A stretch of DNA of 64,000 bases from Boletus sp. NGJ (taxonomy: Eukaryota > Basidiomycota > Agaricomycetes > Boletales > Boletaceae), in NCBI GenBank assembly GCA_019096195.1, contig JAGTXK010000075.1:1-64000 (forward strand), given 5' to 3'. Made by a program: the position numbers and the translations under genes. Below, piece by piece: positions 1-64,000 of this stretch (within the stretch, counting starts at the first letter, position 1; each line of letters starts with the position of its first letter). Below the pieces are notes generated by a model. That model searched no databases, was not told where the DNA came from, and saw only the letters and a program-made list of their open reading frames with translations.

Positions 1-1590
1 CTATATAACTCAGGAACATGAACAAATAGAGCCAAAGTATAAGTAGGTATCTAAATGTGTCTGCTCCTGGCTATCTGTTAAAAAAGACTTATATAATTTA
101 AATAAGTATCCATGGAGATATAGTCAATTCAAATTAGCAAGTCATTGACTCAATTTTGTAACCACATATATATCGAATCTATAGAATCGGCCAATTCTAG
201 TGCTTTGTATGACCTCCTTTGGCCTTGATCACTGCTTGGATCCTCCTAGGCATGCTTTCAATCAAATTCTAACATTCCTCTGGATTTATGTTGTTCCATA
301 CTTCTGCCACTCTATCCCAAATCTCCCATACTCCTTTTGGCATGGTCTTGTATAGCTATGGCAAGCTCCTTTTTGATGTGATTTGCCAGAGGTGTTCAAT
401 GGGATTAAGGTCTGGAGATTGTGCTGGCCAAGTCAAGGAGCTTGATCTCCTTGTCCTTCCAGCCACTGCCTTGGCTCTTTTGGAGGTGTGCTTGGGGTCA
501 TTGTCCTGTTGAAAGATCACATGCTCTCTTTAGAGAAATTCCAGAGTTCCTTCCAGCTGGAAGGAAGCAGAGTTGTCCTCCAAAATGGCCACACATACTG
601 CTCGGCATCCACCCTTCCCTTCAACCTCTGCAAGAGTGCCCCACTCCTCTCCCAACCCATGCACCCCCATACCATACCAGGATATTTCCTCCTCCAAACT
701 TCACTGTTCCCTGAACCTCCTCTGTCTTGCATAAGGCCCTCTCCTGCCTGTTTCCATACCTACTTCCTTTCCATCTGACCCTATCCTGTTGATCTTGGTC
801 TCATATGACCAAATAACATATGACCATATAACCCTCGTCCAGTCCTCCACAGTCCATTGTCTGGTGCTTGAGAGCAAAGGCTAGACACTTTGTTGCCTTT
901 GCTTCTCAGACAAGAGATGGCTTCTTTCTTCTTTGTCTACAGCCTTGAGATGAATGCTGTCTTGAGGAGTCATTCCTCACTGTTTGTGCAGGAGACTGGA
1001 CTAGAGAGAGCATGGAATTGATGATGATGGGTAGCCTGGACAGCATTTTCAACTTTGCCAGAGGTGATACTAGAGACAATTCTCCTTTTATCAGTAGGAG
1101 AAAGTTTGGAAGGACATCCTAATTTGATGTTTTCCTTGCCTGGGTGGATCTCCTTGATAACCCTGGCCACAGTAGACTTCCCCAGACCAGTTTGGAATGA
1201 TATCTGCCTAGTAGAAAGGCCAGATTCAGAGAGAGAGAAGAATATTGGCTCTAGCAGAGGAGGGAGTGGATTTCATGATGAAGTAGGGTTGGCTGGATGG
1301 TATCTCTGCTCTTTATGCCATTTGGAGTTATGTAAGTGACATAATCAGACAGGGTTGAAGCACAGCATCCATCAGAACCTTATGTTATTTACTAAATGAT
1401 AGTTGATAATATCAGAGTCAAATAAGTGTCCCAATGACATATCCTTTTAATATGGCTATATCTCAGTGCCATGACAACCAACTCACATGACTAAGGGCTC
1501 ATTGTCAGGACAAGGATTAGGGCTAATGTCTTTGAGTTCTCCTGCAAATGTCAAGTCTTTTTAACATTGGGACACTTTTTTGTGCCACTG
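1..1590 (-). mobile_element. Tc1-like transposon A (old, runs off window edge)
   Basis: The right boundary is a Tc1-type end reading CAGTGGCACAAAAAAGTGTC on the minus strand from 1590, followed by TA at 1591-1592. An inner inverted copy of the same motif lies near 1425-1445. On the other side, bases about 75-170 match the inner part of the same family's terminal repeat (compare 2430-2500), so the outer end lies just left of position 1. Family: Tc1/mariner, the same subfamily as the element split by Gypsy at 2285-3297. The internal transposase is badly eroded. Confidence 0.85.
190..1305 (-). pseudogene. Tc1 transposase, degenerate
   Basis: Read on the minus strand, 970-1170 encodes the helix-turn-helix/linker part of a Tc1 transposase (VIKEIHPGKENIKLG followed by PSKLSPTDKRRIVSSI). 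The DDE part survives only as short out-of-frame pieces across about 420-900, with recognisable remains of the 'fast QQD' and 'SPDLNP' regions. Numerous small insertions relative to the 2516-3297 relative break the frame, so no functional enzyme can be made. The stop region near 200 aligns with the TAA at 2516 of copy B. It would have cut and pasted its own element at TA sites. This copy looks older than its neighbours. Confidence 0.75.
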
Positions 1591-1592
1591 TA

Positions 1593-2284
1593 TTCTATGG
1601 GCCTGAACATGCTGTACAATTGGAACATCATCAATGGGGATGATTGGTACTACTATAAGCAACATTAATACAGCCAGAAACATGATCAGTGAGACTTTAT
1701 TCTCCATGCTATCACAAGCTAGTGAACTATGCAATATATGTAAGTCCATCAATATGACTAATAAGCACAATGACTACAGCCTTCTCTAAGTCACTTGTAG
1801 ACCACATGATGTAAGTCCAGATATCTACAATATGAATTATGGTAGTCAGTAGACCAAAGCTATAGTCTACATGCCACAAATCCATAATCCATGGTGAATA
1901 GATACATACATCTTAGTGTCAGTAAAGTAGCTATACATGTAAAACCTTTACATGACATACATAAGTCCAAGATAAAGCATCTGAATTGGCCTTTCAACTA
2001 TCTGTAAGTCTAAGTAACCTAGCCATAAGTATAGAATATTGTAAGTCCATAGTCACTCCCATTCACAGACATGTTACTTCATAAGAATAGCACCCCTAGC
2101 CATAAGTAGCTAAATACTTTGTAAGACCAATACCCAGTCTCCTACTTGATCCAATAGTGAACCCATTGTTTTTTACAACCTCACCTTTTGTCATTAGTAA
2201 ATTGCATAGCTTCTCAAATTTCTACAAAATATATTTAGATGCTAACCATTATAATCCAGCATTACTGTCTTTTCACATGACTTA
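1593..2284. other. Unassigned stretch between two Tc1 copies
   Basis: I see no intact gene here. The plus strand holds a short open stretch at 2157-2284 that continues conceptually into right-arm sequence at 59610 and below on the other strand. This is therefore host DNA of the Tc1-B insertion, probably the upstream part of the old Gypsy fossil. The rest is AT-rich and eroded. Confidence 0.5.
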
Positions 2285-3297: not shown

Positions 3298-3776
3298 TGT
3301 TATGACCTTTCGGAACAAAACCACAAGGCTAGGACTATTTGCAGGTTACACGAATCCTGGCTGAACAAATCAGGTGGGGAGTCATTGTCCGTACTGTTCC
3401 CAACCCTACAATGACCAGAATAGCCAAAGCTAATGAGTTGTTGGAGGAAAAATACAAGTGGATTAGACTGGGGATACCAGTCATCAAAGTGCTACTTTAT
3501 ATACATGAGGAGAGTGCGCACGGACCAAGCAGTGCGTGTGATAAATTACTAAGTATAGTAAGATGGAGATTAATAGGGCTGTGTGAGAAGAGCAGAAATT
3601 AAAGAGGCGTGGATCACATGAGGTGTGACGTCATATGATGTCATAGGTTCTAGACCTATCATGTGATGTGTTTCCATGGTCACATGCACAGTCACATGAC
3701 TTATGAAGAAAATAGTTGAAGAAAATGAAGCGTAAGTGTTTGTTTGAAAAGTTTGAAAATTTCTTATATTATAACA
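3298..3776 (-). repeat. 3' LTR of chromodomain Gypsy (479 bp)
   Basis: It begins TGTTATAATA and ends GGTCATAACA when read on the minus strand, giving the usual TG…CA ends. It is flanked on the outside by TAGAC (3293-3297). It differs from the 5' LTR at 60201-60679 at about 11 of 479 positions by eye; about ten are transitions and most of these are at CpG. Confidence 0.93.
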
Positions 3777-5874
3777 CTACCCCCTCTTTAAGACTCGAAT
3801 TCCAGGCGAGTCATTGTTTTTTCATTTTTGGTGAAGTTTTCATAAGGAGTGAATAATGAAGTGAATGCTGAGATGGATAAACCGTGAAGCTTGCATGGTG
3901 CGGAAGGATTAAGACGATGGAAATCTTTGACTGCATCCGGTGCAGTGATACGAATTTCATCAGATTCCCAGGTATGATCGGTTTCATCGTAACCCTTCCA
4001 GTGAACCAGATATTCTAATTTGCTATTCTTCATCCTGGAAGCGGCAATAAAATCAACTTCAAACTGCTCTTCTCCCTCTTCATCAATCTCTATAGCGTCA
4101 GGTTGTGATTTGGGCTGTCCAGGCAGCGTTTCTTTGTATGGTTTGACGCGAGAGATGTTCACCGTTGGATGAATGTGAACAGAGTTGGGGAGTTTAAGCG
4201 TTATGGCGTTAGGAAGAATCCTTGTGATAGCATAAGGACCAATCCATTTTTGTGTAAGTTTTTTCACTGTATATGGAAGTTTTAATTTATCTGTAGATAG
4301 CCACACCTGTTGACCAATAGAATATCTGGGTGCAGTGGATCGTTTTTTATTGGAAGAGGTGATCATCCTCTCTTGTGTAGCTTCTAGCGCTTCTTCAATA
4401 TTCTTATGATTTCATCCAATTTCCTTCGCAAAGCCGTGAGATTCCCTTCAAAAACCCATACGTGGTATGTAGTTTCGTGTGACTTTGAAAGGTATCTCGC
4501 CAGTAGCTGTTGTAACAGTGTTATTATGCGAGAATTGGGCTAACTTCAACCATTTGACCCAGTCGTTTTGTTTCTTTCCAGCATATGTGCGGAGATACTG
4601 CTCGAGATCTCAGTTTACACGTTTGGTTTGTCCGTCCGTTTGCGGATGATATGCCGTAGAGATTTTTTGTTTTATTCCAAGGAGCTTACAAAGCTCCTGG
4701 GTGAAGGCAGAAATGAACTGTGGTCCTCGATCTGATACGAGGGTAGAAGGGAGTCCATGTGTTGACCAAACATGGTCTCTAAATAAAACGGCAAGGTTTT
4801 TCGAAGAGCATGTATTGTAAATAGGTATGAAAATAACTTCTTTAGAAAATCTGTCCACAACGATGCAAATAGCTGTAAAGGAGTGTGATGAAGGTAGACC
4901 TATGATAAAGTCTACCAATAAATCTTCCCATGGTCTTTTTGCCGTGGGTAGAGGAATAACTTTTCCTGCTGGTGCATTTTGCTTACCCTTCATGAGGGCA
5001 CACACTTGGCAGTGATCTACATAATTTTTTATGTCCTTTGTGACTCCTGGCCATGAGAAATATTGAGAAAGAGTGTGTATAGTTTTGGAGTGACCGCCAT
5101 GTCCTGCAATAGGCGAGTCATGACATAAAGTAATGATTTCTGTACGTAAGGTTTCGGGAACGAATATTTGGTCTTTTTCATTTTTGAATAGATTAAGTTT
5201 AGAATAGAAAAGGAAATTGTTTATGGCGTTTATGTTATATTTTTTAGATTCTTTTTGTATTTTTGTTATAAGATCTGAAGATAGAGAAACATGGTTTATA
5301 AAAATAGAAGAAGGGAGAATCGTGATGTTTTGATTGTGATCTTGCACTGCGTCACCATGATCGGGTCTTCTGGAAAGAGCGTTGGCTCTTCCATTTGAAG
5401 AACCTGGTTTGTAAACAAAAGAATAATTAAATTCTTGAAGAAGTGCATGCCAACGTGCTTGTCGTCCACTAAGCGTTTGAGGCTTTTTCCAATATTCTAA
5501 GTTTTTGTGGTCGGTCCAGATTTCAAATCCTTCTCGACCAATTAGATAGTGGCACCATTCTTCTAGGGCGCAAATTACTGCAAGCAGTTTCTTGTCGTAA
5601 ATTGGATAATTGCACTCTGCGCTATTAAAGGAGTGAGAGATAAAGGCAACTGGTCGCCAATTACCATTGTTATATAGAGTAGAGAGCACTGCTCCCGTGG
5701 CGATGTCTGAGGCATTGGTTTCCATGCGCATTTCTTGATCGTGGTTTGGATATACAAGAAGTGGTGCTTCCGTAAATTTTCTTTTTAAGTTGGAGAATGC
5801 TTCTTGTTGTTCTGGGCCCCATTTGAACGGAACGTTTTTCTTGGTAAGATCGTTTAGGGGTCGGGCGATTTGTG

Positions 5875-6871
5875 CAAAGCCTTCTATGAATCGTCTATAA
5901 TAATTACAAAGTCCAAGGAAGCCTTGGAGTTGCTTCAGTCGTGTAGGTATTGGCCAATCCATGACCCCAGCTACTTTCTTTGACTGCATTTCTACCCCCT
6001 CTTTAGATACGACCATTCCTAAAAAGTCCACTTTTCTGGTTTTACGTAAAGGTTGTTCTCATGTAAGCGGTGTAGAACTTCCTTCACAACTTCTTTGTGT
6101 TGTTCTTTTGTCTTTTTTGATGTAAATCTCATGACGTCGTCGATGTAGATGACAACTACAGCATACATGTAGTTAAATATGTCGTTCATCATAGTTTGGA
6201 ATGTGGGGGAAGAGTTTGTGAGTCCGAAATACATAACGGTAGGCTCGTATGCTCCGATAGGGGTGACGAAGGCTGCTTTCCATTCATCGCCTTCTTTGAT
6301 ACGGACATTGTTATATCCCCATCGAAAGTCCATAGCCGTAAATAGGTTCGTGTTCTTGAGTCGATCAATTAACTGCGGGATGAGAGGGAGTGGATAGGAA
6401 TTCTTGATGGTTCCTTCATTTAAATATTGGTAGTCCATGACCATTCATTTTTTACCGTCCTTTTTTGGAATAAAGAAGATGGGGGATGTCTGTGGAGATT
6501 TTGAGGGTTTGATGTAAGCCTTCCTTTTCGATGAATGTTCTGACTTCTTCCATCTCAATGTCCGAAAGGGGAATAACGTGTCCTTTCTTTGGGATGAAGT
6601 CTTCTTTGAGATTGATTGCATGATCCCAGTGTTTTTCGTAAAGGCATCCTTTGAGATTCTTTCTCCGAGAAGACATCTAGAAATTCATGATAAGTTAGTG
6701 GAACTTTCCCTTTGAGTCCTTCCTCTATCGTACAAAGCTGAACCAGTTCATAAGAAGAAGTGGGTCCTAGGCCCATAATTTTACAGTAAGAGGTACAGCG
6801 GGGAAAAGTAATTGTTTGTTTTATCCAATCGATGTCAGGGTTGTGGCAGTACAGCCAATCATAACCAATGA
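5875..6871 (+). repeat. Outer palindrome arm beyond the deletion (left)
   Basis: This stretch is the reverse complement of 63005-64000, with coordinates summing to about 69875. It lies inside the chromodomain Gypsy element. The symmetry resumes immediately outside the 4.07 kb that is missing from the left arm, so left positions 1-5874 should pair with sequence beyond the right edge of the window. Confidence 0.9.
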
Positions 6872-8965
6872 CGCCATTGCCTTTGAGAATATGCATAGGG
6901 GAACCCTTAAAGAAACTCACTTTACCCCATACAGAATCCCTCATATGCCCTATGAATCATAGCAATACAAGAATATTCCTATACCAACAGATATATGGGA
7001 TAAAGTAATGGAAGTATTAGTATTCTAACTCAATTGATGCTGGAGTATATGAACCATATCAATTGCCCTACTGCCCTTGCTGATTTGGCACTTAAAATGC
7101 TAAGAAGTGAAAGCTTCATATTGTCCATGACCTGCAACTCCATAACAAAATAAGCATATAAGGATCATCAATTCCCCCTAACCTGAATTAGTTTATTGAC
7201 CAATATTTAGGTGGAAAATGCTTATAGTCTTTGACTTGTATTGAGAATTTGATGCTAGGAAAATGGTTAAAGTCAGTCATGATATGATAGCTTTTCTACC
7301 ACTCTTAGGAATGCTGAGAATCACTTCACTATCAACAAAATACAGATATACTAATCTTCCTCTGAATTTCAAGAATGTATGATATTCATATTCAAGGACA
7401 AGATAGACAAACAAGTTATGAATGTTTTCATTGATGATGGTTCCATCTATGGACCAACTATAGTATACTTAGACAAAAATGGAAACCCTGTGATAATATC
7501 AAAGAAACCTGATATCAGTAAATACATTTGGGAACATGTACTGTAGTAGATCTAAATAGAATTTTACACTGCTCAATAGAAACTGGTGCTACTGTACATT
7601 CTCAGACAAGAAACTCCAAATCTGCAAACTCCATGTCCAAATATGAAATGTTCACACTTGATACCCACTATATATTTCCACCCTCACTACACTTTCACAC
7701 TACCTATAGATGATACTCTCGCCTACCACCAACCAAACTCCCTCCTTGCTATACATATAAATACACAACCTAGTCCCCATATGATACCACATCCATATCA
7801 TACACCATTCTACCATTCATATCCTTGTATTCCTCATCGTATCCTTTATTATATAATATACCATATAACTGATAATACCCACATATGCTTTCACTAGCTA
7901 TATCCTCATTGTATCCATTACTATATGGTATCAAGTAGCCTCACAGCTAAACCTGGCATTTACCACCACAAGCATAGGCCCACAAGCCTCTAAACTACAC
8001 TGACCTATGGACATATCTGATGCAGTGCTCAGTATCCACACAAGGCTACTAATCAGGAGCTAGCCTCCAGATCACCTGATGACTTCTATACAGGCAAAAG
8101 CAATGGAAACCCTTTTTCAAACAACATTTCTTTACATGTTTGCTTTGCCTCCTGTGATTAGAACACTATAAGCTAGGGGAATTTTTACCTCCTTGATGAA
8201 ACAATCTCTAGGTCTGCTAGGTTTGAGTCAGTTGAATACTTAGTATAACTGAGTGCATGGGTTGTTTGCCAATTTCCAACAAATGCTGAAGAATTGGAAT
8301 TGAAATGGTTTCAACTGTAGTCTGGTTAATAGTGTAAACAACTGTAAACAACTATAAACATATCTAAAGGTATGCTAGTCAATGCTACTAGGTTGCTAGC
8401 CTTTGGTTAGTAGGCTTTTTTAGCAGGTCAAATGAGTCAATTGCTATAAAAGGCAATGACTTTGTGGCTGGTAATCCGCAGATATGCTGGATTGTCAAGA
8501 TGTTGAGATCTTCCCGGTAAGGCTGAAATAGATTCACACTACACTTAGGTCACTCAGATAGGTTATGATAACTCAATCTTATTGTTTGCTAAGGAGAGTG
8601 CAATTTAGTGCTTATTTGGCTATACTGTCACTTATCCTCTTAGGTGGGCAGTCAGCAGAGCAGCAGGGATGTTTGGGGTCTAGTAGTATTAAACTATTGG
8701 GGATCTATTCCCTTTTGTTGCCCTATTTAAAGTTTTCTCCCAAAAGGTATTCTATATTTCTTGTGCACTATTGGCTACAAGAATTTACTTCTAAGAATCT
8801 AACTAGCTATCTAAACAATGGAGAATGTCCTCCTCAAGGTCCTCTGTGGGTTGCCTGTGAGTGGTACTCCAAATAGGGGTAAGAATTGCTCTTCTTGAGA
8901 GAACTTCTCTAGTTGAGATGCCCTATATGAGGGGTGATCTGCTCTCTTTGTGGCCTGAATGGCTC

Positions 8966-9005
8966 TTCTTTTATAGATAAATACATGGGCTTGGCTAACC
9001 AATCA
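8966..9005 (-). promoter_or_regulatory. Putative LTR promoter boxes
   Basis: On the minus strand ATTGG (inverse CCAAT, 8999-9003) lies about 24 bases upstream of TATAAAAG (8968-8975). The same pair is kept in the related repeat at about 30905-30965. Position and conservation suggest a retroelement promoter; activity is not shown. Confidence 0.4.
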
Positions 9006-9060
9006 GAAGGGTTGGCTGCTTACAAATGCCAAGTGTTTACTAACTGATGCATGGAACACT

Positions 9061-9140
9061 ATGGAATATCATAGAATCTTATGGAATGTCATGGAATCTT
9101 ATGGAATCTTATGGAATCTTATGGAATCTCATGGAATGCT
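9061..9140 (+). repeat. 10-bp tandem repeat ATGGAATCTT
   Basis: Four near-exact units lie at 9101-9140 (the last ends in C), preceded by imperfect units from 9061. The sister repeats near 31030 and 29200 have only one or two units, so the array expanded in this copy. The mirror is at about 56671-56750. Confidence 0.8.
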
Positions 9141-9307
9141 GAGTCATGTGATGGAAGGCTGTGTAGAATATGGTCACATGGTCACATTCTCTCACTGGCA
9201 CTTAACTATATTTATTAGATCCATCACAGATACATTAGACAAGATCCAATCCATTTCCCAATGTGATTCTATCTCAATATCCAATCTCATGATCAAATCT
9301 ATGTAAC

Positions 9308-9700
9308 ACCTTAAACATTCCTTTTGCATTTCTCTTTCATTTCATCCTTGCATTCCTATCTATTGATCCCTTTGATACAGTATATCACAATGTAGCTGTG
9401 TTTCAGAACATTATGGACTACCTTTCACTTACATGTGCATAACACATGCATTTCATTCCATCCCTCCTTCCTTTTACAATTGAACATTAACAATTTCTTG
9501 TTCCTGTGATGTCATACCCAGTACCCTACAACATTATAGCATAGCATGGTCCATGCACCACTGCCGGTAGTATATAAGTAGCCAGTAGAGTATCATGTTC
9601 TCCTTAGTCTTGATATTGCCTCTTGCTCTCCTGCATATTGCCTTAGTTGGCAACACTTGAGATATTAGGTCTAGGCTTCACCACTCTGTTTGTTGGTTGT
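9308..9700 (+). repeat. Second LTR-like segment
   Basis: AT-rich segment with TATATAAG near 9574 in plus orientation, lying between repeat R1 and the resumed Gypsy coding sequence. It may be a solo LTR of another family. Its exact ends are unresolved. Confidence 0.4.
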
Positions 9701-11118
9701 TCCTTTCAAAATACTGAAACAAGCAGTTGGAGTAGATGGCTGAAAACCAGACAATGATAGAATAAAGGCTATCTATGAATGGCCCACTTCTAAGAATGCT
9801 AAAGGAGCAAGACAGTTTATGGGCCTATGTGGAATGGTCCATATATGGATTGCTACTTTCAAATACAGTAGCTACCACCATTGTTTTCACTTGGAGAAAG
9901 AAAAGATTTGAATGGACTAAAGTTTACTGATACTTTTTTGAAATGCTTAAGGAACTTGTAATTTCAGCTCCAATACTACTACCAATTGACTACACCTCAA
10001 GTCAACTCCATCATACTATTAGTAGACTCTAGTTATACATATAGGGGTAGGTATGGTACTATCCCAACTAGACCATCACAATATAAATCTATATTATTTT
10101 CCACTACAGAAGCTATCTATTACCAGCCAAAGTTGGGGCTGTATGGATTGTTTCATGCAACTAGACATTTCCACTCCTAGTAGATGCTAAGTACACCAAA
10201 GGAATGTTGAGAAAATTAGAGCTGAAACCTAATACAGTTATAAACAGATGGATTCAAGAAATCCTGATGTTTGATTTAAATTAGTATATGTATCTGCTAC
10301 TACACTCACCTCTGATGCTTTATCAAGAATTCCAACTGATCAAACACAAGTTTTACACTATGATGACACTTGGTTGGATGAAATAGCTCTTTATAATAAG
10401 GCTATATATATCAGCAGATCAGCATCAAACATCTGATTATAGTATATTTATGCAACTCACCTGATGCAAGCAAATTGTTACAACATAGCCACTGCCAAGC
10501 AGGAGGCTAGCCAAGATCTGTGACCACATTACCAACTCATTTCCTTGAATTGCTAGTGAAGAACTCCTCAAAAGGGTTAAGAAGTACTATATCAGAGCTA
10601 ATAAACTATTCAAATGAGTTCAGAATGGCAAACTGCTACTAGTTATCCTTGATCCAAGAAAGTGCCTAGACCTACTAACTCAAGCTCATAATTTCTTGGG
10701 ATATTATGGAATCAAGACAACTTGGCTTGGCAGAATCTACAACATAGATTTTATTGGCCCATCATGTACAAAGATGCAATATACTATATTAAATCCTACT
10801 ATGAGTGCCAAATTAGAAGTATTCTAAAGATACATTTGCCCATTACTATATCTCCACCAGCTATTGTATTCATTAAAGCATATAGTATATTGATATAATG
10901 TATATGCCAAATGCTTAAGAATACATTCTATTGTAATTGCAAGTGATGACCTCACAAAATATGTTGAGGGACAAGCTTTGAAAAAAGCTTCAACTAAAGC
11001 AGTTGCAAGGTTTATGTTATGATTCTGAAGGAGAATACCCCTTTTTACCAATTATTCATTCATCCTTCCTCTTCAACCATTGATAACTTACAGTATACTG
11101 TAAGAAGACCTAATGTTA

Positions 11119-11203
11119 CAGTGGTTTCCATAAGTATGTGGAAAACACATTGAAGAAAGTCGCACCTTGGAGACAGCCGCAGAAGGACCCAGAAGTGGCT
11201 GAC
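11119..11203 (+). repeat. Left TIR of mariner A
   Basis: Starts CAGTGGTTTCCATAAG right after TA and matches the inverted copy at 14102-14186 with a handful of differences. Confidence 0.92.
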
Positions 11204-11269
11204 TGGGTAGCCTGCAGCTGAATAAGCATCATTGCTTTTGCAAGCTGCCACTACTCATGCTGCTGGACA

Positions 11270-12323
11270 CTGCTGCATTGTATCTCCTAACCTCAAAGCC
11301 CACATCTCCCTCTTGTATCATAAAGACCATAGTGTCCAACAGATCTGTCACATATTGGTTGTCAAAAAGTCACTTGTTTACACGACACTCTCCTTGGACT
11401 CAAAATATGGGACTGTAACCAACCCAAACAAGTACTCTTGTACTACCGGTCGCCCCTGAGTACTCACCTGAGCAGATGTTGCTCTTATCTCTACTGTCAT
11501 TCAGTATCGGAGTACCATCTACCTCGATGAGCTTCAAAGTGAGCTATGGGCTAAGCATCATAAGTACATTATATTCTCTACCCTTCTTCAAATACTCCTG
11601 TGGCTTTTCATCACCCAGAAGATTATTTCCTCTTCTGCTGCAGAGCAGAATGAAGAGATGCATGCAATTTACATGAACTGCATCGCTGCAGAAGCACCAG
11701 ATCCAAATATGCTTGTTTTTGTTGATGAAGCTGCCAAGGATAAATGAACGTCCACCTGCCAACATGGACGGTCGACAAGAGGAGTTCATTGTCACATCAA
11801 GAGGTGCTTTGTACATGGCACAAGATTTTCTATCATTCCTGCTATCACTCTTGATGGCATTATCACATACGATGTCATTGAGAGACTGGTTGATGGTAAG
11901 CATTTTTCGAGCTTTTTGAATAAACATGTGGTGTGTTATTTATATTTCTATGTATATTTCATCAATCACATCTTTGCTACAGATGCCATTTACCAATCCA
12001 TATCTGGGTCCCCACAGTGTACTCATCATGGACAATTGTTGCATTCACCATGGTGAGGAGGTCTGTGCGCTGATTGAAGACATGCATCATATGTCATCAA
12101 TGCATCATTCTTTATGTACTAACCACCATTAGTGTGCAAACTCATTTTCCTCCCTCCTTACTCCCCTGATTACAATCCCATTGAGCAGGCCTTCTCAGCT
12201 ATCAAGGCGTATTTTCGGCGCCACTGTAATGACTTCTTGATAACCATGATTGCTCGTGCTTGTCAGAACATCACTCCTGACAAAGTAGAAGGATATTTTA
12301 TGGCATTGGATTACATTGTATAG
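11270..12323 (+). pseudogene. Mariner-like DDE transposase (spliced, decayed)
   Basis: Nuclear cut-and-paste transposase of a type common in Agaricomycetes. The N-terminal helix-turn-helix region ('LKAHISLLYHKDHSVQQICH') lies at about 11290-11460, followed by 'YLDELQSELW' near 11514. The first catalytic aspartate is in MLVFVDEAAKD near 11712, the second in VLIMDNC near 12025 (after an intron at about 11893-11983, GTAAG…CTACAG), and the glutamate in SPDYNPIEQAF near 12165. A second intron ends at the AG at 12131 after a CTAAC branch site, but its donor is degraded. Frame breaks occur before 11476 and after about 11740, so it is probably dead, though all three catalytic residues remain. The neighbour is the convergent companion gene, 125 bases downstream. 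Confidence 0.88.
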
Positions 12324-12448
12324 TTGAAATGGACTTAGGACTGTTGTAATCAATTGTTATCTGATTAAATGGAGTCATCAGAGCAATAGCATTGCATTCA
12401 AATGTCGAACTAGATACTAAGTGACACGGAAATACTGGCAATATTGTC

Positions 12449-14040: not shown

Positions 14041-14101
14041 TGCGAGTGATGTAGGTATGTGATATAAATTCGACCCAATATCTACACTACAGGTTGCTTA
14101 C

Positions 14102-14186
14102 TCAGCCACTTCTGGGGTCCTTCTGTGGCTGTCTCCAAGGCATGACTTTCTTCAATGCATTTTCCACATACTTATGGAAACCACTG
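14102..14186 (-). repeat. Right TIR of mariner A
   Basis: Inverted partner of 11119-11203, followed by TA at 14187-14188. Confidence 0.92.
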
Positions 14187-20274: not shown

Positions 20275-20344
20275 GTTTTTCTCCAACATATAGCTTTGTT
20301 ACTATCTACAAGTACATAGCTAATAGAATTGTAAATACTACATA
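20275..20344 (+). repeat. Edge of LTR-like repeat R2, split by pogo
   Basis: Starts at the family edge TGTTTTTCTCCAACATATAG and runs to the TA at 20343-20344, where the pogo element begins. The rest of R2 lies on the other side of the pogo element from 29121. The uninterrupted sister at about 31130-31208 shows the empty site. Confidence 0.85.
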
Positions 20345-25390: not shown

Positions 25391-25404
25391 ATATGAAGTG
25401 GGTA

Positions 25405-26421: not shown

Positions 26422-26486
26422 GATGATGTGGTTGGAAATAAAGAAGTGTGTGAACTATTATTTCAACAAGATTGCACATTCTCTAC

Positions 26487-34539: not shown

Positions 34540-34540
34540 C

Positions 34541-45469: not shown

Positions 45470-45539
45470 TATGTAGTATTTACAATTCTATTAGCTATGT
45501 ACTTGTAGATAGTAACAAAGCTATATGTTGGAGAAAAAC
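45470..45539 (-). repeat. Edge of LTR-like repeat R2 (mirror)
   Basis: Mirror of 20275-20344, on the far side of the pogo insertion. Confidence 0.85.
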
Positions 45540-51627: not shown

Positions 51628-54600
51628 CAGTGGTTTCCATAAGTATGTGGAAAATGCATTGAAGAAAGTCATGCCTTGGAGACAGCCACAGAAGGACCCC
51701 AGAAGTGGCTGAGTAAGCAACCTGTAGTGTAGATATTGGGTCGAATTTATATCACATACCTACATCACTCGCATGTCTGAGCAATCAGGCCTGGGAGCTC
51801 AATCTGCCGAGAGGCAGTATGCCTTTGCAGTCACCCTTACTATCTATTTGACACTCAAGCAGTCATCTAAGGCCAGAACTACTGCCAAGTGACAAGAAAA
51901 ATCTATAAAAACTAAGGAACTACTTTTTCTGCTTGATGAGACTAACTATATTGAATTCTTGGAAAGCATGCTTGAGAAACATGGAAAAGCCTGGTACAAG
52001 ATCTCTTGCAAGCAGCACTTTTCATTCAAGTATACTATATTGTACTGAAGATGAAGAGGTTTGACTTTCCACATTTTCAGTTGTTGGTCTTATGAGAATT
52101 TATCTAGCCAGCACATGAGTGAGGCAATGGATGTAGACAATGAGTCAGACTACAAGAAAATGGTCCACAAGATTGTTAACACCATTGGGAACTCTGGCAC
52201 AACAAAAATACTCATTGATATGAAACAATTGAGAAACTCCCCTCGTATCAAGCCAATGCCAATGCTGGAGATGAAGAATCAGGCACATCAGACAAGAACC
52301 AGGTATTTCCTTTCATTTCAATGGTTAAATGGTCTAATAATGTAATTTTCAAATAAGACCAAGACCCTGTCCCAAACTGTATCAGACCTTGATGTGCACC
52401 TTGCTCAATGGTGCCTGAAACTTGCAAAAATGTACAAGAACAAGCATAATGAAGGTCTTATGTATATTGGACCATCAGATATTACCATCCCACTCACTCC
52501 CACTATGATACTTGACTGGGCTCACACTTTGGTATGGCTCTATAATGTTGCATCAAAAAAAATTCTAATCAGCTCGTAGGAGAAAGGGCAGGCCACATTG
52601 CATATGCTGCCCAATATTCCTTCATTTGATATTGCCAACAAGGCACTGTTCCTACATCCAGCTCACAAGGTGCATGTGCAGACTCCTCCACAGTTGCTAC
52701 CATCTCTAAAATCTGGGCCTGGGCTATTGGATGTTAACTCACTTACATCAGTTTTTCTCCTTCAGATGCTAGCTAATTTGCTTCCTCAGTCTGGGTCAAA
52801 TAGCCAATCTGCTCTAGTTCCAACTACACCTACTCATAATGTCTTAGAAAAATCAGTCCTGCCTCCATTTCTATTCCCATCCTAGCTTTCATGCTTTCTC
52901 AAGTATGCAGAAACTGATCTGGGTGTTTCTAACACTACTACATATGAGCACAAACTCACCACACAACACATTGGGCCATATATGCTCTCCAAAATCAGTG
53001 ACAAGATGCTTTTGGACATTGGAATTCCAACTGGCAATATCATCTGTCTGAAAAAGGATTGTATGGTTTGGTGGAATGGTCCCGATGCAAAGTGGAAGCA
53101 TAGTGATACTGATCAAAGCTCAACAAGCAAGTTGAGGTCACCTACCCATCCACTTCAGAAAAAGATCAGCTACAAGCAGAAGTATCATGATGACTGCTGC
53201 TGCTGCTTTACTATGTCCCCAATGATACCTGGTGATGACAATGGACCAAGGGACTATGACCTCTGGTACCAGGCAACAGATCATGGCATTTGGCTTCCAG
53301 TTCCAAAGGGATTTATTGTTTGTGAGGATGTCGAGGAGGATAAGGTTGGCTTTTTCAATAACTAGGACAATATTGCCAGTATTTCCGTGTCACTTAGTAT
53401 CTAGTTCGACATTTGAATGCAATGCTATTGCTCTGATGACTCCATTTAATCAGATAACAATTGATTACAACAGTCCTAAGTCCATTTCAACTATACAATG
53501 TAATCCAATGCCATAAAATATCCTTCTACTTTGTCAGGAGTGATGTTCTGACAAGCACGAGCAATCATGGTTATCAAGAAGTCATTACAGTGGCGCCGAA
53601 AATACGCCTTGATAGCTGAGAAGGCCTGCTCAATGGGATTGTAATCAGGGGAGTAAGGAGGGAGGAAAATGAGTTTGCACACTAATGGTGGTTAGTACAT
53701 AAAGAATGATGCATTGATGACATATGATGCATGTCTTCAATCAGCGCACAGACCTCCTCACCATGGTGAATGCAACAATTGTCCATGATGAGTACACTGT
53801 GGGGACCCAGATATGGATTGGTAAATGGCATCTGTAGCAAAGATGTATTGATGAAATATACATAGAAATATAAATAACACACCACATGTTTATTCAAAAA
53901 GCTCGAAAAATGCTTACCATCAACCAGTCTCTCAATGACATCGTATGTGATAATGCCATCAAGAGTGATAGCAGGAATGATAGAAAATCTTGTGCCATGT
54001 ACAAAGCACCTCTTGATGTGACAATGAACTCCTCTTGTCGACCGTCCATGTTGGCAGGTGGACGTTCATTTATCCTTGGCAGCTTCATCAACAAAAACAA
54101 GCATATTTGGATCTGGTGCTTCTGCAGCGATGCAGTTCATGTAAATTGCATGCATCTCTTCATTCTGCTCTGCAGCAGAAGAGGAAATAATCTTCTGGGT
54201 GATGAAAAGCCACAGGAGTATTTGAAGAAGGGTAGAGAATATAATGTACTTATGATGCTTAGCCCATAGCTCACTTTGAAGCTCATCGAGGTAGATGGTA
54301 CTCCGATACTGAATGACAGTAGAGATAAGAGCAACATCTGCTCAGGTGAGTACTCAGGGGCGACCGGTAGTACAAGAGTACTTGTTTGGGTTGGTTACAG
54401 TCCCATATTTTGAGTCCAAGGAGAGTGTCGTGTAAACAAGTGACTTTTTGACAACCAATATGTGACAGATCTGTTGGACACTATGGTCTTTATGATACAA
54501 GAGGGAGATGTGGGCTTTGAGGTTAGGAGATACAATGCAGCAGTGTCCAGGCATGAGTAGTGGCAGCTTGCAAAAGCAATGATGCTTATTCAGCTGCAGG

Positions 54601-54692
54601 CTACCCAGTCAGCCACTTCTGGGTCCTTCTGCGGCTGTCTCCAAGGTGCGACTTTCTTCAATGTGTTTTCCACATACTTATGGAAACCACTG
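51628..54692 (-). mobile_element. Mariner-like transposon A with companion gene (mirror)
   Basis: Mirror of 11119-14186, three bases shorter (3065 bp). The two small length differences between the arms fall in this element: one base in the first transposase intron (near 53844) and two bases near 54556. The companion gene is on the plus strand at 51774-53365 and the transposase on the minus strand at 53491 to about 54540. Confidence 0.92.
51774..53365 (+). pseudogene. Companion gene copy A (mirror)
   Basis: Same as 12449-14040, in plus orientation. The 'HLAQWCLKLAKMYKNKHNEG' block is in 52394-52579 and the SAM-like fold near 52974-53055. No difference from the left copy was noticed. Confidence 0.7.
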
Positions 54693-57600
54693 TAACATTA
54701 GGTCTTCTTACAGTATACTGTAAGTTATCAATGGTTGAAGAGGAAGGATGAATGAATAATTGGTAAAAAGGGGTATTCTCCTTCAGAATCATAACATAAA
54801 CCTTGCAACTGCTTTAGTTGAAGCTTTTTTCAAAGCTTGTCCCTCAACATATTTTGTGAGGTCATCACTTGCAATTACAATAGAATGTATTCTTAAGCAT
54901 TTGGCATATACATTATATCAATATACTATATGCTTTAATGAATACAATAGCTGGTGGAGATATAGTAATGGGCAAATGTATCTTTAGAATACTTCTAATT
55001 TGGCACTCATAGTAGGATTTAATATAGTATATTGCATCTTTGTACATGATGGGCCAATAAAATCTATGTTGTAGATTCTGCCAAGCCAAGTTGTCTTGAT
55101 TCCATAATATCCCAAGAAATTATGAGCTTGAGTTAGTAGGTCTAGGCACTTTCTTGGATCAAGGATAACTAGTAGCAGTTTGCCATTCTGAACTCATTTG
55201 AATAGTTTATTAGCTCTGATATAGTACTTCTTAACCCTTTTGAGGAGTTCTTCACTAGCAATTCAAGGAAATGAGTTGGTAATGTGGTCACAGATCTTGG
55301 CTAGCCTCCTGCTTGGCAGTGGCTATGTTGTAACAATTTGCTTGCATCAGGTGAGTTGCATAAATATACTATAATCAGATGTTTGATGCTGATCTGCTGA
55401 TATATATAGCCTTATTATAAAGAGCTATTTCATCCAACCAAGTGTCATCATAGTGTAAAACTTGTGTTTGATCAGTTGGAATTCTTGATAAAGCATCAGA
55501 GGTGAGTGTAGTAGCAGATACATATACTAATTTAAATCAAACATCAGGATTTCTTGAATCCATCTGTTTATAACTGTATTAGGTTTCAGCTCTAATTTTC
55601 TCAACATTCCTTTGGTGTACTTAGCATCTACTAGGAGTGGAAATGTCTAGTTGCATGAAACAATCCATACAGCCCCAACTTTGGCTGGTAATAGATAGCT
55701 TCTGTAGTGGAAAATAATATAGATTTATATTGTGATGGTCTAGTTGGGATAGTACCATACCTACCCCTATATGTATAACTAGAGTCTACTAATAGTATGA
55801 TGGAGTTGACTTGAGGTGTAGTCAATTGGTAGTAGTATTGGAGCTGAAATTACAAGTTCCTTAAGCATTTCAAAAAAGTATCAGTAAACTTTAGTCCATT
55901 CAAATCTTTTCTTTCTCCAAGTGAAAACAATGGTGGTAGCTACTGTATTTGAAAGTAGCAATCCATATATGGACCATTCCACATAGGCCCATAAACTGTC
56001 TTGCTCCTTTAGCATTCTTAGAAGTGGGCCATTCATAGATAGCCTTTATTCTATCATTGTCTGGTTTTCAGCCATCTACTCCAACTGCTTGTTTCAGTAT
56101 TTTGAAAGGAACAACCAACAAACAGAGTGGTGAAGCCTAGACCTAATATCTCAAGTGTTGCCAACTAAGGCAATATGCAGGAGAGCAAGAGGCAATATCA
56201 AGACTAAGGAGAACATGATACTCTACTGGCTACTTATATACTACCGGCAGTGGTGCATGGACCATGCTATGCTATAATGTTGTAGGGTACTGGGTATGAC
56301 ATCACAGGAACAAGAAATTGTTAATGTTCAATTGTAAAAGGAAGGAGGGATGGAATGAAATGCATGTGTTATGCACATGTAAGTGAAAGGTAGTCCATAA
56401 TGTTCTGAAACACAGCTACATTGTGATATACTGTATCAAAGGGATCAATAGATAGGAATGCAAGGATGAAATGAAAGAGAAATGCAAAAGGAATGTTTAA
56501 GGTGTTACATAGATTTGATCATGAGATTGGATATTGAGATAGAATCACATTGGGAAATGGATTGGATCTTGTCTAATGTATCTGTGATGGATCTAATAAA
56601 TATAGTTAAGTGCCAGTGAGAGAATGTGACCATGTGACCATATTCTACACAGCCTTCCATCACATGACTCAGCATTCCATGAGATTCCATAAGATTCCAT
56701 AAGATTCCATAAGATTCCATGACATTCCATAAGATTCTATGATATTCCATAGTGTTCCATGCATCAGTTAGTAAACACTTGGCATTTGTAAGCAGCCAAC
56801 CCTTCTGATTGGTTAGCCAAGCCCATGTATTTATCTATAAAAGAAGAGCCATTCAGGCCACAAAGAGAGCAGATCACCCCTCATATAGGGCATCTCAACT
56901 AGAGAAGTTCTCTCAAGAAGAGCAATTCTTACCCCTATTTGGAGTACCACTCACAGGCAACCCACAGAGGACCTTGAGGAGGACATTCTCCATTGTTTAG
57001 ATAGCTAGTTAGATTCTTAGAAGTAAATTCTTGTAGCCAATAGTGCACAAGAAATATAGAATACCTTTTGGGAGAAAACTTTAAATAGGGCAACAAAAGG
57101 GAATAGATCCCCAATAGTTTAATACTACTAGACCCCAAACATCCCTGCTGCTCTGCTGACTGCCCACCTAAGAGGATAAGTGACAGTATAGCCAAATAAG
57201 CACTAAATTGCACTCTCCTTAGCAAACAATAAGATTGAGTTATCATAACCTATCTGAGTGACCTAAGTGTAGTGTGAATCTATTTCAGCCTTACCGGGAA
57301 GATCTCAACATCTTGACAATCCAGCATATCTGCGGATTACCAGCCACAAAGTCATTGCCTTTTATAGCAATTGACTCATTTGACCTGCTAAAAAAGCCTA
57401 CTAACCAAAGGCTAGCAACCTAGTAGCATTGACTAGCATACCTTTAGATATGTTTATAGTTGTTTACAGTTGTTTACACTATTAACCAGACTACAGTTGA
57501 AACCATTTCAATTCCAATTCTTCAGCATTTGTTGGAAATTGGCAAACAACCCATGCACTCAGTTATACTAAGTATTCAACTGACTCAAACCTAGCAGACC

Positions 57601-59610
57601 TAGAGATTGTTTCATCAAGGAGGTAAAAATTCCCCTAGCTTATAGTGTTCTAATCACAGGAGGCAAAGCAAACATGTAAAGAAATGTTGTTTGAAAAAGG
57701 GTTTCCATTGCTTTTGCCTGTATAGAAGTCATCAGGTGATCTGGAGGCTAGCTCCTGATTAGTAGCCTTGTGTGGATACTGAGCACTGCATCAGATATGT
57801 CCATAGGTCAGTGTAGTTTAGAGGCTTGTGGGCCTATGCTTGTGGTGGTAAATGCCAGGTTTAGCTGTGAGGCTACTTGATACCATATAGTAATGGATAC
57901 AATGAGGATATAGCTAGTGAAAGCATATGTGGGTATTATCAGTTATATGGTATATTATATAATAAAGGATACGATGAGGAATACAAGGATATGAATGGTA
58001 GAATGGTGTATGATATGGATGTGGTATCATATGGGGACTAGGTTGTGTATTTATATGTATAGCAAGGAGGGAGTTTGGTTGGTGGTAGGCGAGAGTATCA
58101 TCTATAGGTAGTGTGAAAGTGTAGTGAGGGTGGAAATATATAGTGGGTATCAAGTGTGAACATTTCATATTTGGACATGGAGTTTGCAGATTTGGAGTTT
58201 CTTGTCTGAGAATGTACAGTAGCACCAGTTTCTATTGAGCAGTGTAAAATTCTATTTAGATCTACTACAGTACATGTTCCCAAATGTATTTACTGATATC
58301 AGGTTTCTTTGATATTATCACAGGGTTTCCATTTTTGTCTAAGTATACTATAGTTGGTCCATAGATGGAACCATCATCAATGAAAACATTCATAACTTGT
58401 TTGTCTATCTTGTCCTTGAATATGAATATCATACATTCTTGAAATTCAGAGGAAGATTAGTATATCTGTATTTTGTTGATAGTGAAGTGATTCTCAGCAT
58501 TCCTAAGAGTGGTAGAAAAGCTATCATATCATGACTGACTTTAACCATTTTCCTAGCATCAAATTCTCAATACAAGTCAAAGACTATAAGCATTTTCCAC
58601 CTAAATATTGGTCAATAAACTAATTCAGGTTAGGGGGAATTGATGATCCTTATATGCTTATTTTGTTATGGAGTTGCAGGTCATGGACAATATGAAGCTT
58701 TCACTTCTTAGCATTTTAAGTGCCAAATCAGCAAGGGCAGTAGGGCAATTGATATGGTTCATATACTCCAGCATCAATTGAGTTAGAATACTAATACTTC
58801 CATTACTTTATCCCATATATCTGTTGGTATAGGAATATTCTTGTATTGCTATGATTCATAGGGCATATGAGGGATTCTGTATGGGGTAAAGTGAGTTTCT
58901 TTAAGGGTTCCCCTATGCATATTCTCAAAGGCAATGGCTGCTTTGTTCTTTACTAGTATGTAAAGAAATAATTATATTTTATCCAGCCATAGAAAATTCT
59001 TTTTGCACATCTCTACATACAATTTTCTTGAGTAAATTTTGCTGTGGGCATAATATTATCAAAGTGGATATTAGATAGTACCAAGATTGATAAGAAATTA
59101 AAAGGAATGGTCTTTTTAACCTTAAATTCAATTGGGATTGGTTAAACTATAGGTCTGATTTTCTTATCAACCAGTTTGTAGGCTCCATAGGCATATCCTG
59201 CACACATGTAGAAGAGTGAGTAAGTTCTCCTAAGATTTCAGAATCAAGGTGGTAGTTACCCATGTTGCTGTCTTTTTCATGTGACTTGTCGGTGTAGAAA
59301 ATTTCTTTCAAACACATATCATCTTTAGTCAGTTCACAGCATCTTAATATAATGCCAGAATTTGAAGGAAAATATATCATCTGCCTTGTAGACACATGTA
59401 GAATATATGCCAAGATGATCAGAGATGAAATTCAAACATTCATATTTTGGAGGCACAAGAATATACAGTAACTTTCAGTTATTCTGGAATTGAACCTCTA
59501 AATGTCAACAAGGAGAGTGATATTTTTTTTTCTGAATTTCTATATTGTGCTGAGGTGCTATAAACTGACCAAAGGTGATATGTGTTTGACAGAAATTTTC
59601 CACATGCATA
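54693..59610 (-). mobile_element. Older Ty3/Gypsy fossil (right copy, longer)
   Basis: Mirror of 6873-11118 as far as 58938. It then continues to about 59608 with upstream pre-RT coding remains that the left arm has lost. It holds the mirrored LTR-like insertion at about 56110-58156 (R1 at 56504-57711). It is highly broken and old. Its upstream part was later the target of Tc1 copy B at 59609-59610. Confidence 0.78.
56504..57711 (+). repeat. LTR-like repeat R1 (mirror)
   Basis: Mirror of about 8100-9307, starting TGTTACATAG at 56504. It contains the ATGGAATCTT tandem array in inverse form (56671-56750) and the CCAAT/TATAAAAG pair near 56808-56845. Confidence 0.55.
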
Positions 59611-60200
59611 CAGTGGCTCAAAAAAGTGTCCCAATGTTTGACTATTTTGCAAAGACTTGACATTTGCAAAAGAACCAAAAGGTATTAGCCCTAACCCTTG
59701 CTGGGCCATTGATAGCCCTAATCCTTGCCCTGAAGATGAGCCCTTAGTCATGTGAGTTGGTTGTCATGGTACTGAGTTATTGCCATATTGAAAGGATATG
59801 TCATTGGGACACTTATTTGACCCTGATATTATCAATTATCATTTAGTAAATAACATAAGGTTCTGATGGATGCTGTGCTTCAACCCTGTCTGATTATGTC
59901 ACTTACATAACTCCAAATGGTATAAAGAGCAGAGATACCATTCAGCCAACCCAACTTCATTATGAAATCCACTCCCTCCTCTGTTAGAGCCAATATTCTT
60001 TTTCTCTCTGAATCTGGCCTTTCTACTAGGCAAATATCATTCCAAACTGGTCTGGGGAAGTCTACTGTGGCCTGGGTTATCAAGGAGATCCACCCAGGCA
60101 AGGAAAACATCAAATTAGGATGTTCTTCTAAACTTTCTCCTACTGATAAAAGGAGAATTGTCTCTAGTATTACCTCTGGCAAAGTTGAAAATGCCGTCTA
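59611..60200 (+). mobile_element. Tc1-like transposon B, 5' half
   Basis: Outer end CAGTGGCTC at 59611 after TA (59609-59610), inner inverted motif near 59797-59822, then the transposase start. It is interrupted after GTCTA (60196-60200) by a Gypsy 5' LTR. With 2285-3297 in the left arm it accounts for one complete Tc1 of about 1.6 kb. Confidence 0.92.
59962..60200 (+). pseudogene. Tc1 transposase, N-terminal part
   Basis: ATG 59962 opens 'MKSTPSSVRANILFLSESG' followed by 'LSTRQISFQTGLGKSTVAW', a typical Tc1 helix-turn-helix, and 'SKLSPTDKRRIVSSITSG'. The frame is open up to the LTR insertion at 60201. It is cut off before the catalytic domain, which survives only at 2516-3297. Confidence 0.9.
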
Positions 60201-60679
60201 TGTTATAATATAAGAAATTTTCAAACTTTTCAAACAAACACTTACACTTCATTTTCTTCAACTCTTTTCTTCATAAGTCACGTGACTGTGCATGTGACCA
60301 TGGAAACACATCACATGATAGGTCTAGAACCTATGACATCATATGATGTCACACCTCATGTGATCCACGCCTCTTTAATTTCCGCTCTTCTCACACAGCC
60401 CTATTAATCTCCATCTTACTATACTTAGTAATTTATCACACGCACTGCTTGGTCCGTGCGCACTCTCCTCATGTATATAAAGTAGCACTTTGACGACTGG
60501 TATCCCCAGTCTAATCCACTTGTATTTTTCCTCCAACAACTCATTAGCTTTGGCCATTCTAGTCATTGTAGGGTTGGGAACAGTACGGACAACGACTCCC
60601 CACCTGATTTGTTCAGCTAGGATTCGTGTAACCTGCAAATAGTCCTAGCCTTGTGGTTTTGTTCCAAAAGGTCATAACA
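60201..60679 (+). repeat. 5' LTR of chromodomain Gypsy (479 bp)
   Basis: TGTTATAATA…GGTCATAACA, preceded by target duplication GTCTA (60196-60200). A TATA-like TGTATATAAAG lies near 60472-60482. Its partner is the 3' LTR at 3298-3776. Confidence 0.93.
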
Positions 60680-63004
60680 CTTGGATTAGACTATATACAC
60701 AACACTCGGACTCCAGAGCCAAGGAGATTATACGCGGGCCCAGTGTTTAAGGGACATCTGTAGTATTCACCACTTGACGGTGACGAGAAAAGCACTCGCC
60801 GAAATGCTTGCATATACGCTCATCCGGCATCATAAATAAGGATAATGTTGCTGCCGGGCATAGTGCACTAGCCCCACTTCTTAGGTGGTTGCCGATCTAA
60901 GTGTACGCTGATTCTACGATAGTGAATCCAGATTCTCGTGATTACCTGTGACGTCACAAAGTTACGATAAGGAGATTTATCTCGACTTTCTCCCGTGTAA
61001 CGCCTGCTCATAGTAAAGCAGTTATACTCTGGTCCTCCATCACTGCTTGCCCACCATTTTCAACGATCTTTATTTCGACTCCTACGAAGGCGTAGGGACC
61101 CCAGAACCCGATTGTAAGATATTGGGTAGTAAGGTCCTGAAAGAAGACCGACCAAGGAAAAGAAAAACCTATATCAGAAATCCCGACAAAGTCAGACCTC
61201 TCCGTCCCTCCTCCACATTTGCCCTCTACCACATCGCATACTTCCGCTCATATCTTTGTCCAACCTCTCTTCTAAAACCCGTCAACAAATATGTCTCATC
61301 TCGACATTGATGAGCTTGTCCAAAAACTCGCCGACCTTACTCAGGAACGTGATAAAGATAATGTCACCAAGAAAATCGCCGACCCTGGGAAATGGGATGG
61401 CACAAGGTCAACCTTCCACCCATGGTGGATAAAGCTCCGTCTCTGGGTCGACGCTCAGACCTGGAAAAACAACAAGATCATGGACATCGCAGTCCTCTCG
61501 CGCCTCAAGGGAAAGGCAGAAAGTTTTGCTCAACTTGTAATGGAGCACTATCTTGATGAAGAGGCGACCATCGAGACAGACACAAACGGAGTCATGCAGC
61601 CAGCAAAAGGAGCCAATGCGTGGCCAACATGGAACAGGTTGCAAGACCAAATAAAGACGCACTTTTGTATTGATACATTAGTGCACGAGTCTCTGAGGAA
61701 ACTCGAGACTTTGAAACAAAACGGTCATCTCATAGACCTGTTCCTGCAAAAATTCGAGATTCTGAGGAAAGAGTCATACATAGACGACCATCACACTGAA
61801 GTTCTTCTCAAAAAGGCTGTAGATTACAAGATCTATGAGAGATCTTGGCTAAACAGTCCAGCTCGAAACTTCAATTACGAAGATCTGGTCATAAACTACA
61901 GAACAATAGGAAGGGCGTTTGAACAAATAGCGAACAAACGCGGACCGCCCATTCGATCTCAACCTCCTCGTTCATCGTTTCCCTCCTCCTCGTGGGCAGC
62001 CCCCACACAATTCTTACTGCCCCCAATACACGGCAGTGGGCACTCAACCGGGTCGCGGTGCACCCATGGAAATAGGAGTCCAGCAGGCTGGACCTTCGAA
62101 AGAAACAAGGACCTGTTTCCATTGTGGCAAACCCGGCCACATAAAGCCAAACTGCCCCACGAATCCATTCAAACAGACTGGTCGTCCACCAATGCAGAGA
62201 CAGATATGGGATTGGAACCAAGGCTCGTACGTCGAGCAAACCCAGGGAGAAAATGAGTATCCCTCTTTTTTTAATGAACTCCAATCTCAACAATACGCAT
62301 CATGACCACTCCCGCAACCTCCCATAGCTACAGCGGCACCAAGTGTAGCAGCAAGGGCATACGTTTCTGATGAGGCAGAAGTGTATTACAGAGACAAGTT
62401 TGAAGTGGAGGCCAAAGCCAGAGCTGCTCAGGCTTTAAATGGACAGCGCCAATGAGTGAAGAGGGAACTCAGCGGCACGAACAATTTTCTTCTTCTTCTC
62501 TTACAACATGTACCAGTAGCGACTTTCCTATCTCAGATCTTTCTTCTGTTCTACGTAATTTATCAATGGAATCTGTGAGGGCATCTCAATTGAGCGTGGC
62601 ACCGGACTTAAGTGTACTTAATTCCCTCGTCAAACAACAAAAAATATCACGTATCTATAAACCCACAAAGGTTACATTGAACCAAGCATCCACGCTTTCC
62701 TATGGCGGAGAATTCTCCCTCAAAACCATAGTATCGTGCAATGTCAATGGCCAGTGGTCACGTTACCGTTTCCAGTCCCTCCTGGATTCTGGGAGCGTCG
62801 CATACTTTTATTGATCAGGACTACGTTAAACGTCACGGAATTCCCTTTCTATACTATTGATAACCCCATAAAGATACATAACACTGACGGTTCAGAAGGA
62901 GCTATCGGACCGATCCGTCACATGCGTAACACTGATGGTGGAAATTGAAGGACATTATGAAGTAATAGACGCTTACATATCAAAGCTAGGAACCCATCGT
63001 ATGA

Positions 63005-64000
63005 TCATTGGTTATGATTGGCTGTACTGCCACAACCCTGACATCGATTGGATAAAACAAACAATTACTTTTCCCCGCTGTACCTCTTACTGTAAAATTA
63101 TGGGCCTAGGACCCACTTCTTCTTATGAACTGGTTCAGCTTTGTACGATAGAGGAAGGACTCAAAGGGAAAGTTCCACTAACTTATCATGAATTTCTAGA
63201 TGTCTTCTCGGAGAAAGAATCTCAAAGGATGCCTTTACGAAAACACTGGGATCATGCAATCAATCTCAAAGAAGACTTCATCCCAAAGAAAGGACACGTT
63301 ATTCCCCTTTCGGACATTGAGATGGAAGAAGTCAGAACATTCATCGAAAAGGAAGGCTTACATCAAACCCTCAAAATCTCCACAGACATCCCCCATCTTC
63401 TTTATTCCAAAAAAGGACGGTAAAAAATGAATGGTCATGGACTACCAATATTTAAATGAAGGAACCATCAAGAATTCCTATCCACTCCCTCTCATCCCGC
63501 AGTTAATTGATCGACTCAAGAACACGAACCTATTTACGGCTATGGACTTTCGATGGGGATATAACAATGTCCGTATCAAAGAAGGCGATGAATGGAAAGC
63601 AGCCTTCGTCACCCCTATCGGAGCATACGAGCCTACCGTTATGTATTTCGGACTCACAAACTCTTCCCCCACATTCCAAACTATGATGAACGACATATTT
63701 AACTACATGTATGCTGTAGTTGTCATCTACATCGACGACGTCATGAGATTTACATCAAAAAAGACAAAAGAACAACACAAAGAAGTTGTGAAGGAAGTTC
63801 TACACCGCTTACATGAGAACAACCTTTACGTAAAACCAGAAAAGTGGACTTTTTAGGAATGGTCGTATCTAAAGAGGGGGTAGAAATGCAGTCAAAGAAA
63901 GTAGCTGGGGTCATGGATTGGCCAATACCTACACGACTGAAGCAACTCCAAGGCTTCCTTGGACTTTGTAATTATTATAGACGATTCATAGAAGGCTTTG
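63005..64000 (-). repeat. Outer palindrome arm beyond the deletion (right)
   Basis: Partner of 5875-6871. The encoded reverse-transcriptase stretch at 63431-63856 is identical in translation to that at 6019-6444 on the other strand. The match runs to the window edge. Confidence 0.9.

Follow-up and report, generated by a model that had tools for sequence, protein, structure and literature searches.

The 64-kb window analysed here, the whole stretch from position 1 to 64,000 of contig JAGTXK010000075.1 of the basidiomycete Boletus sp. NGJ (assembly GCA_019096195.1), contains a giant palindrome, an inverted repeat about a single unpaired G at 32907. We consider it probable that this palindrome is a technical fold-back taken into the assembly and not a structure of the chromosome. 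The reading draws on the absence of any substitution between the arms, a spacer of one nucleotide, a short inverted repeat at the centre that probably predates the fold, and a retrotransposon insertion that is divided between the arms.

The symmetry was followed base by base outward from the centre, where 32906 pairs with 32908. Pairing is perfect for 20,939 pairs, to left 11968 and right 53846. A gap of one base at left 11967 is followed by 704 pairs, and a gap of two bases (left 11261-11262) by a further 4,388, which carries the alignment to left 6873 and right 58938. At this point the arms differ on a larger scale: the single left base 6872 stands opposite 4,066 bases of the right arm (58939-63004). 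Outside this difference pairing resumes for 996 pairs (5875-6871 against 63005-64000), within which the third small gap is a T5/T4 homopolymer difference at left 6636. The arms therefore total 27,027 aligned pairs with no substitutions and three small gaps, and the rule of three sets an upper limit of about 1.1e-4 on their substitution divergence. A census of inverted 31-mers placed 20,909 matching words on one axis, the extra axes being offset by the small gaps and the 4-kb difference, and BLAST agreed with the walk on the layout; the window has one large symmetry axis. A chance origin was ruled out, since one base-shuffled window shared no inverted 31-mers. The giant near-perfect palindrome described in the initial annotation is thus borne out in the sequence. 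That annotation also carried the symmetry to both edges of the window; the right edge is indeed reached, but left 1-5874 has no partner within a window whose right arm ends at 64000; symmetry was assessed for 5875-64000 and may continue into the left remainder. At 907 bases from the window midpoint, the centre gives a slight indication that the record may extend hardly beyond the palindrome. A palindromic chromosome with its telomeres in the window found no support, as all four doubled telomere-type motifs looked for are absent.

The centre coincides with a short inverted repeat, ATCAA-G-TTGAT. Repeat search found a diverged direct repeat of the centre-adjoining 32784-32883 at 22751-22850, and gapped alignment carries this likeness as far as the centre and slightly past it, with identity in 102 of 132 columns; the similarity stops just past the ATCAA-N-TTGAT bases. 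In outward-strand translation the right arm reads VDCKMKTAFISIQSDNKLEMF... and the diverged copy ...RPQYQFDCNKAKQGFISIQSEDKLEMF..., the frame of the copy being degenerate, with a stop after ...KLEMFI. The central frame (32907-33083) has no Pfam match, and the centre appears to interrupt a once-coding frame. Since the unfolded diverged copy also carries ATCAA-N-TTGAT, the 5-bp inverted repeat with its one-base spacer probably predated the fold-back, an argument taken from a single diverged copy. Repeats with 5-bp arms and a 1-nt spacer occur at 52 of the 32,846 left-arm positions (0.16%), and the rates for spacers of 0-3 total 0.64%. A pre-existing repeat makes it less likely that the fold fell at just any fragment end, with template and then complement read in succession, and more likely that a 3' end annealed back to the short repeat and was then sealed or extended. 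As far as the sequence indicates, the repeat at the centre suggests that a broken end was capped as a hairpin or primed its own copying, and fits the tube and the cell alike. A pre-existing short inverted repeat is what fold-back priming in vivo would call for, and it is not specific to an in vivo origin.

The 4-kb difference identifies the relationship between the arms. In the segment found only in the right arm, a Tc1-like piece is followed by a long terminal repeat (LTR, 60201-60679) and gag, and the outer left arm carries pol, an LTR (3298-3776) and then a Tc1-like frame with a Pfam match. Each LTR is accompanied on its outer side by GTCTA, and the pair is the 5-bp target duplication of one gypsy insertion, divided between the arms. 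Both arms therefore derive from a single locus, with the right arm representing the undeleted state; a deletion has removed 4,066 bp from the left arm, and its junction has a single filler base and lacks microhomology. A transposon insertion into the right arm was ruled out as the source of the difference, because the layout of LTR, gag and GTCTA makes the segment part of an insertion that has its other end in the left arm; no duplication was seen at the ends of 58939-63004. The two LTRs are 2.3% apart whereas the arms have no substitutions, which suggests that the gypsy insertion long predates the palindrome.

The gypsy insertion seems to be lodged in a Tc1-like gene, an arrangement of nested transposons. 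The Tc1-like piece of the right-only segment has 88.5% nucleotide similarity to left 1039-1593 over 592 columns. Frame 2605-3288 matches Pfam DDE_3 and HTH_Tnp_Tc3_2; the frames at 59926-60210 (right arm) and 970-1269 (left) have no Pfam match and are called Tc1-like from nucleotide similarity and by-eye comparison with frame 2605-3288. Astride the left deletion junction (6866-6879) lies a 5-bp inverted repeat, CAATG-4 nt-CATTG, whose halves are 4 kb apart in the right arm. It could be a chance occurrence (about 1%) or a trace of template switching; it was noticed post hoc, 5-bp repeats with spacers of 0-6 total 1.2% of positions, and it was not used as evidence.

We propose that, in the course of sample or library work, the end of a DNA fragment fell close to ATCAA-G-TTGAT and its 3' terminus snapped back on the short inverted repeat. 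Sealing or copying of this terminus would have left a molecule capped by a hairpin or copied from itself. Sequencing of such a molecule would yield a strand and then its own complement with one base between, and an assembler accepting the fold-back read would go out of the locus and back along it, so that both arms would be the same DNA. The 4-kb difference may have arisen if one of the two passes followed a version of the locus with a minority or allelic deletion and the other did not, or if a second chimeric read was involved. We infer the in vitro origin, the exact step and the source of the 4-kb difference; the one-base centre, the substitution-free arms, the same-locus origin and the short repeat in the diverged copy are read from the window itself.

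A technical origin is favoured because there is zero divergence, the spacer is 1 nt and the small differences are only of the gap type. Zero substitutions combined with gap-only small differences, one of them in a T homopolymer, resemble a pattern of consensus error and not natural divergence. The arms behave as one locus without natural divergence (0/27,027, and a split gypsy insertion with GTCTA). Transposon-rich DNA, in which wrong overlaps would be easily accepted by an assembler, and a centre close to mid-window are also consistent with an artefact. Published accounts describe comparable products: (i) in nanopore ligation libraries inverted-repeat reads make up 0.18-7.33%, and the authors state that sequence alone cannot separate false from true chimeras (PMC13141652); (ii) some fold-back reads have no sequence between their halves, and such reads can tangle assembly graphs (PMC12870357); (iii) palindromic Arabidopsis reads reached 47.8 and 43.6% in two amplified sets against 0.5% in unamplified material, which was attributed to false positives and missed adaptors (PMC6218980); (iv) 406 of 475 amplification chimeras were inverted, with more than 70% of junctions primed at 2-21 complementary nt (PMC1855051). 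The window resembles the fold-back chimeras of these four sources in presenting both strands of one locus with no or a tiny spacer and near-perfect identity, and the amplification chimeras in having its joint at a short complementary stretch. Unlike fold-back chimeric reads, its arms differ by a 4,066-bp deletion, which is known here from the contig alone.

That deletion is the main item weighing against a technical origin, as it presupposes a further event or another version of the locus. With a 4,066-bp segment in the right arm only, the whole window does not derive from a single fold-back molecule and is not simply one palindromic read. Other points tell in the same direction. The deletion junction does not lie between repeats, as would be expected of a collapse error, and two of the three small gaps are outside homopolymers. 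The simplest artefact, a template-then-complement read, needs no central inverted repeat and is disfavoured for this reason, and the short-repeat signature fits in vivo fold-back priming equally well.

A real and recent inverted duplication in the organism is possible though rather unlikely. A break near ATCAA-G-TTGAT would leave a resected end that folds on the repeat; fill-in and ligation would produce a hairpin cap, and replication would convert it into a palindrome. As a variant, template switching could have occurred at the short repeat, as in origin-dependent inverted-repeat amplification (ODIRA). On either route one arm would later have lost 4 kb. The probably pre-existing central repeat fits these schemes, and the clean one-arm deletion fits as later decay. 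Repeats of this size lie at published junctions. Inverted duplications in yeast that lacks the Mre11 nuclease or Sae2 have natural inverted repeats of 3-15 bp at their centres, and a 5-bp repeat was used in wild-type clones (PMC10622511); deficient yeast needs no more than repeats of 5-9 bp separated by 3-12 bp (PMC7999016, a review citing Deng et al.), and ODIRA examples have repeats of 4-5 bp (PMC11790251). Like the yeast fold-back duplications, the window has a natural inverted repeat of a few bp at its centre from which the copy extends outward (PMC10622511); unlike them, its spacer is 1 nt, below the published 3-12 bp (PMC7999016), and no nuclease-deficient background is known. With ODIRA it shares a short inverted repeat at an inverted junction (PMC11790251). 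ODIRA is marked by two inverted junctions and a triplication around an origin; within the 64 kb of the window one large symmetry axis is seen. The risk of instability rises with arm length, arm identity and shorter spacers (PMC7999016), yet here no modification of the centre is seen across 20,939 bp of either arm. A real duplication must also account for a large deletion alongside zero substitutions. Palindrome instability does not usually act as a large deletion 26 kb from the centre, which counts against this origin.

If two haplotypes of a dikaryon or diploid, one with a 4-kb deletion, had been assembled head to head, the one-arm deletion would resemble a heterozygous variant. This account, one of those listed in the initial annotation, is poorly supported and we regard it as improbable: apart from the one large deletion, allelic divergence would have to be reconciled with 0 substitutions in 27,027 pairs, and the 1-nt centre would itself require something like a fold-back read. 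Active homogenisation, also listed there, found no positive support. An old palindrome held identical by gene conversion, as in the ampliconic palindromes of the human Y, would explain high identity across long arms, but a 4-kb deletion and three small gaps have gone uncorrected, there is no unique spacer between the arms, and the 25 frames scanned with Pfam yielded transposon domains and not one conserved cellular gene. Y palindromes keep a spacer longer than 1 nt, and we find gene conversion very hard to credit. The options 'very recent', 'fold-back' and 'misassembly' from the same list all survive, narrowed to a fold-back event at a short inverted repeat; with the central 5-bp repeat probably pre-existing and the right arm in the undeleted state, this fold-back was most likely technical.

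Palindromes in other assemblies provide a further comparison. Gene-block palindromes were described in the 2013 Adineta vaga and the Folsomia candida assemblies (PMC5490193, PMC5916493), one Folsomia palindrome having a Ks (synonymous substitutions per synonymous site) of 0.2 (PMC5490193). In a different A. vaga assembly one palindrome was present, and a low N50 was pointed out by its authors (PMC7749112), and a survey of parthenogenetic animals noted that erroneous scaffolding creates artificial palindromes (PMC7953838). As in the 2013 A. vaga and F. candida records, large inverted duplications lie in one assembled record; unlike those, which are homologous gene blocks, the arms of the window lack any substitution divergence. 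No fungal giant palindrome of this kind was noticed among the titles and abstracts from the literature search.

Table 1. Features of the palindrome and the divided gypsy insertion (window coordinates).
Feature	Position	Strand	Basis or remark
Left arm, inner core	6873..32906	+	against reverse complement of 32908-58938: substitutions 0, gaps of 1 and 2 bases
Right arm, inner core	32908..58938	-	reverse complement of 6873-32906 except the 1- and 2-base gaps
Symmetry centre, 1-nt spacer (G)	32907..32907	.	walk
Left arm outside deletion	5875..6871	+	partner 63005-64000; 996 pairs, substitutions 0, gap 1
Right arm outside extra segment, to window edge	63005..64000	-	partner 5875-6871
Deletion junction, left arm	6872..6872	.	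one base (C) in place of 4,066 bp; walk
Right-arm-only segment: Tc1-like piece, 5' LTR, gag with zinc knuckle	58939..63004	+	zf-CCHC above Pfam cut-off, Retrotrans_gag below
Gypsy 5' LTR	60201..60679	+	GTCTA just before; sequence comparison
Gypsy 3' LTR of the same insertion	3298..3776	-	GTCTA just after; 11/479 mismatches to 5' LTR
Gypsy pol, several frames: reverse transcriptase, RNase H, integrase, SH3, chromodomain	3788..6444	-	Pfam
Short inverted repeat ATCAA-G-TTGAT at centre	32902..32912	.	diverged copy has ATCAA-A-TTGAT at 22872-22882
Diverged copy of centre region	22751..22882	-	102/132 columns identical; runs on past fold point; frame with stop; repeat search, gapped alignment, translation
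Open frame starting at centre, 59 codons and stop, mirrored on left arm	32907..33086	+	protein-level likeness to diverged copy; no Pfam match

The Pfam-recognised content of the arms consists of transposons: gypsy (reverse transcriptase, RNase H, integrase, Tf2-1-like SH3, chromodomain and zinc-knuckle gag), Tc1-like pieces (DDE_3, HTH_Tnp_Tc3_2) and DDE_1 transposase pieces. Eleven of 25 scanned frames have a Pfam match at E 0.01 or better, 4 of the 11 only below the curated cut-off of the family, and none is a conserved cellular gene. The chromodomain and Tf2-1-like SH3 matches, together with the general character of the protein families, would suit a fungus, probably an agaricomycete. A solved-structure search matched Ty3 and other retroelement pol chains. 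The window gave no match to structural RNA or tRNA genes (Rfam at gathering score; ARAGORN), and two scans of viral contigs found no relative. Terminal inverted repeats of 534 bp, with one mismatch between them, and a TA at either end bound a 2,014-bp element at 29121-31134, which has its mirror image in the right arm. A related repeat at 20269-20367 appears to display the empty site, and 8139-9211 is a 77% relative of the right half of this element. The open frames 12449-12928, 17495-18139 and 18590-19180 (159, 214 and 196 codons) have no Pfam match at E 0.01; the product of the first presumably resembles widespread unnamed agaricomycete proteins. A scan of prokaryote genomes returned 16 loci at 32-70% identity on bacterial or archaeal contigs of 3-13 kb, some of them probably eukaryotic contamination, and these were not used. 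Five contigs (L001, L002, L006, L008, L012) of one metagenome-assembled genome labelled uncultured Trichormus carry gypsy-type pol at 33-41% identity, probably as eukaryotic contamination.

If the palindrome is technical, the record counts one locus twice and would mislead tallies of copy number, transposons and synteny. A one-base centre at a short inverted repeat would then serve as a simple flag for fold-back contigs, and the use of a diverged internal copy to test whether the repeat came before the fold is a small, reusable method. It is unlikely that the window holds a naturally occurring palindrome, with arms of 27 kb or more about a one-base spacer, that arose by in vivo fold-back at a 5-bp inverted repeat and was sufficiently stable for sequencing. 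Were it real, the palindrome would be unusually large for an unspaced one in a natural genome and would offer a case in which to test the cellular tolerance of hairpins. The organism would then tolerate, or fail to open, hairpins that model yeasts process, and decay after formation would have started with a 4-kb deletion far from the centre.

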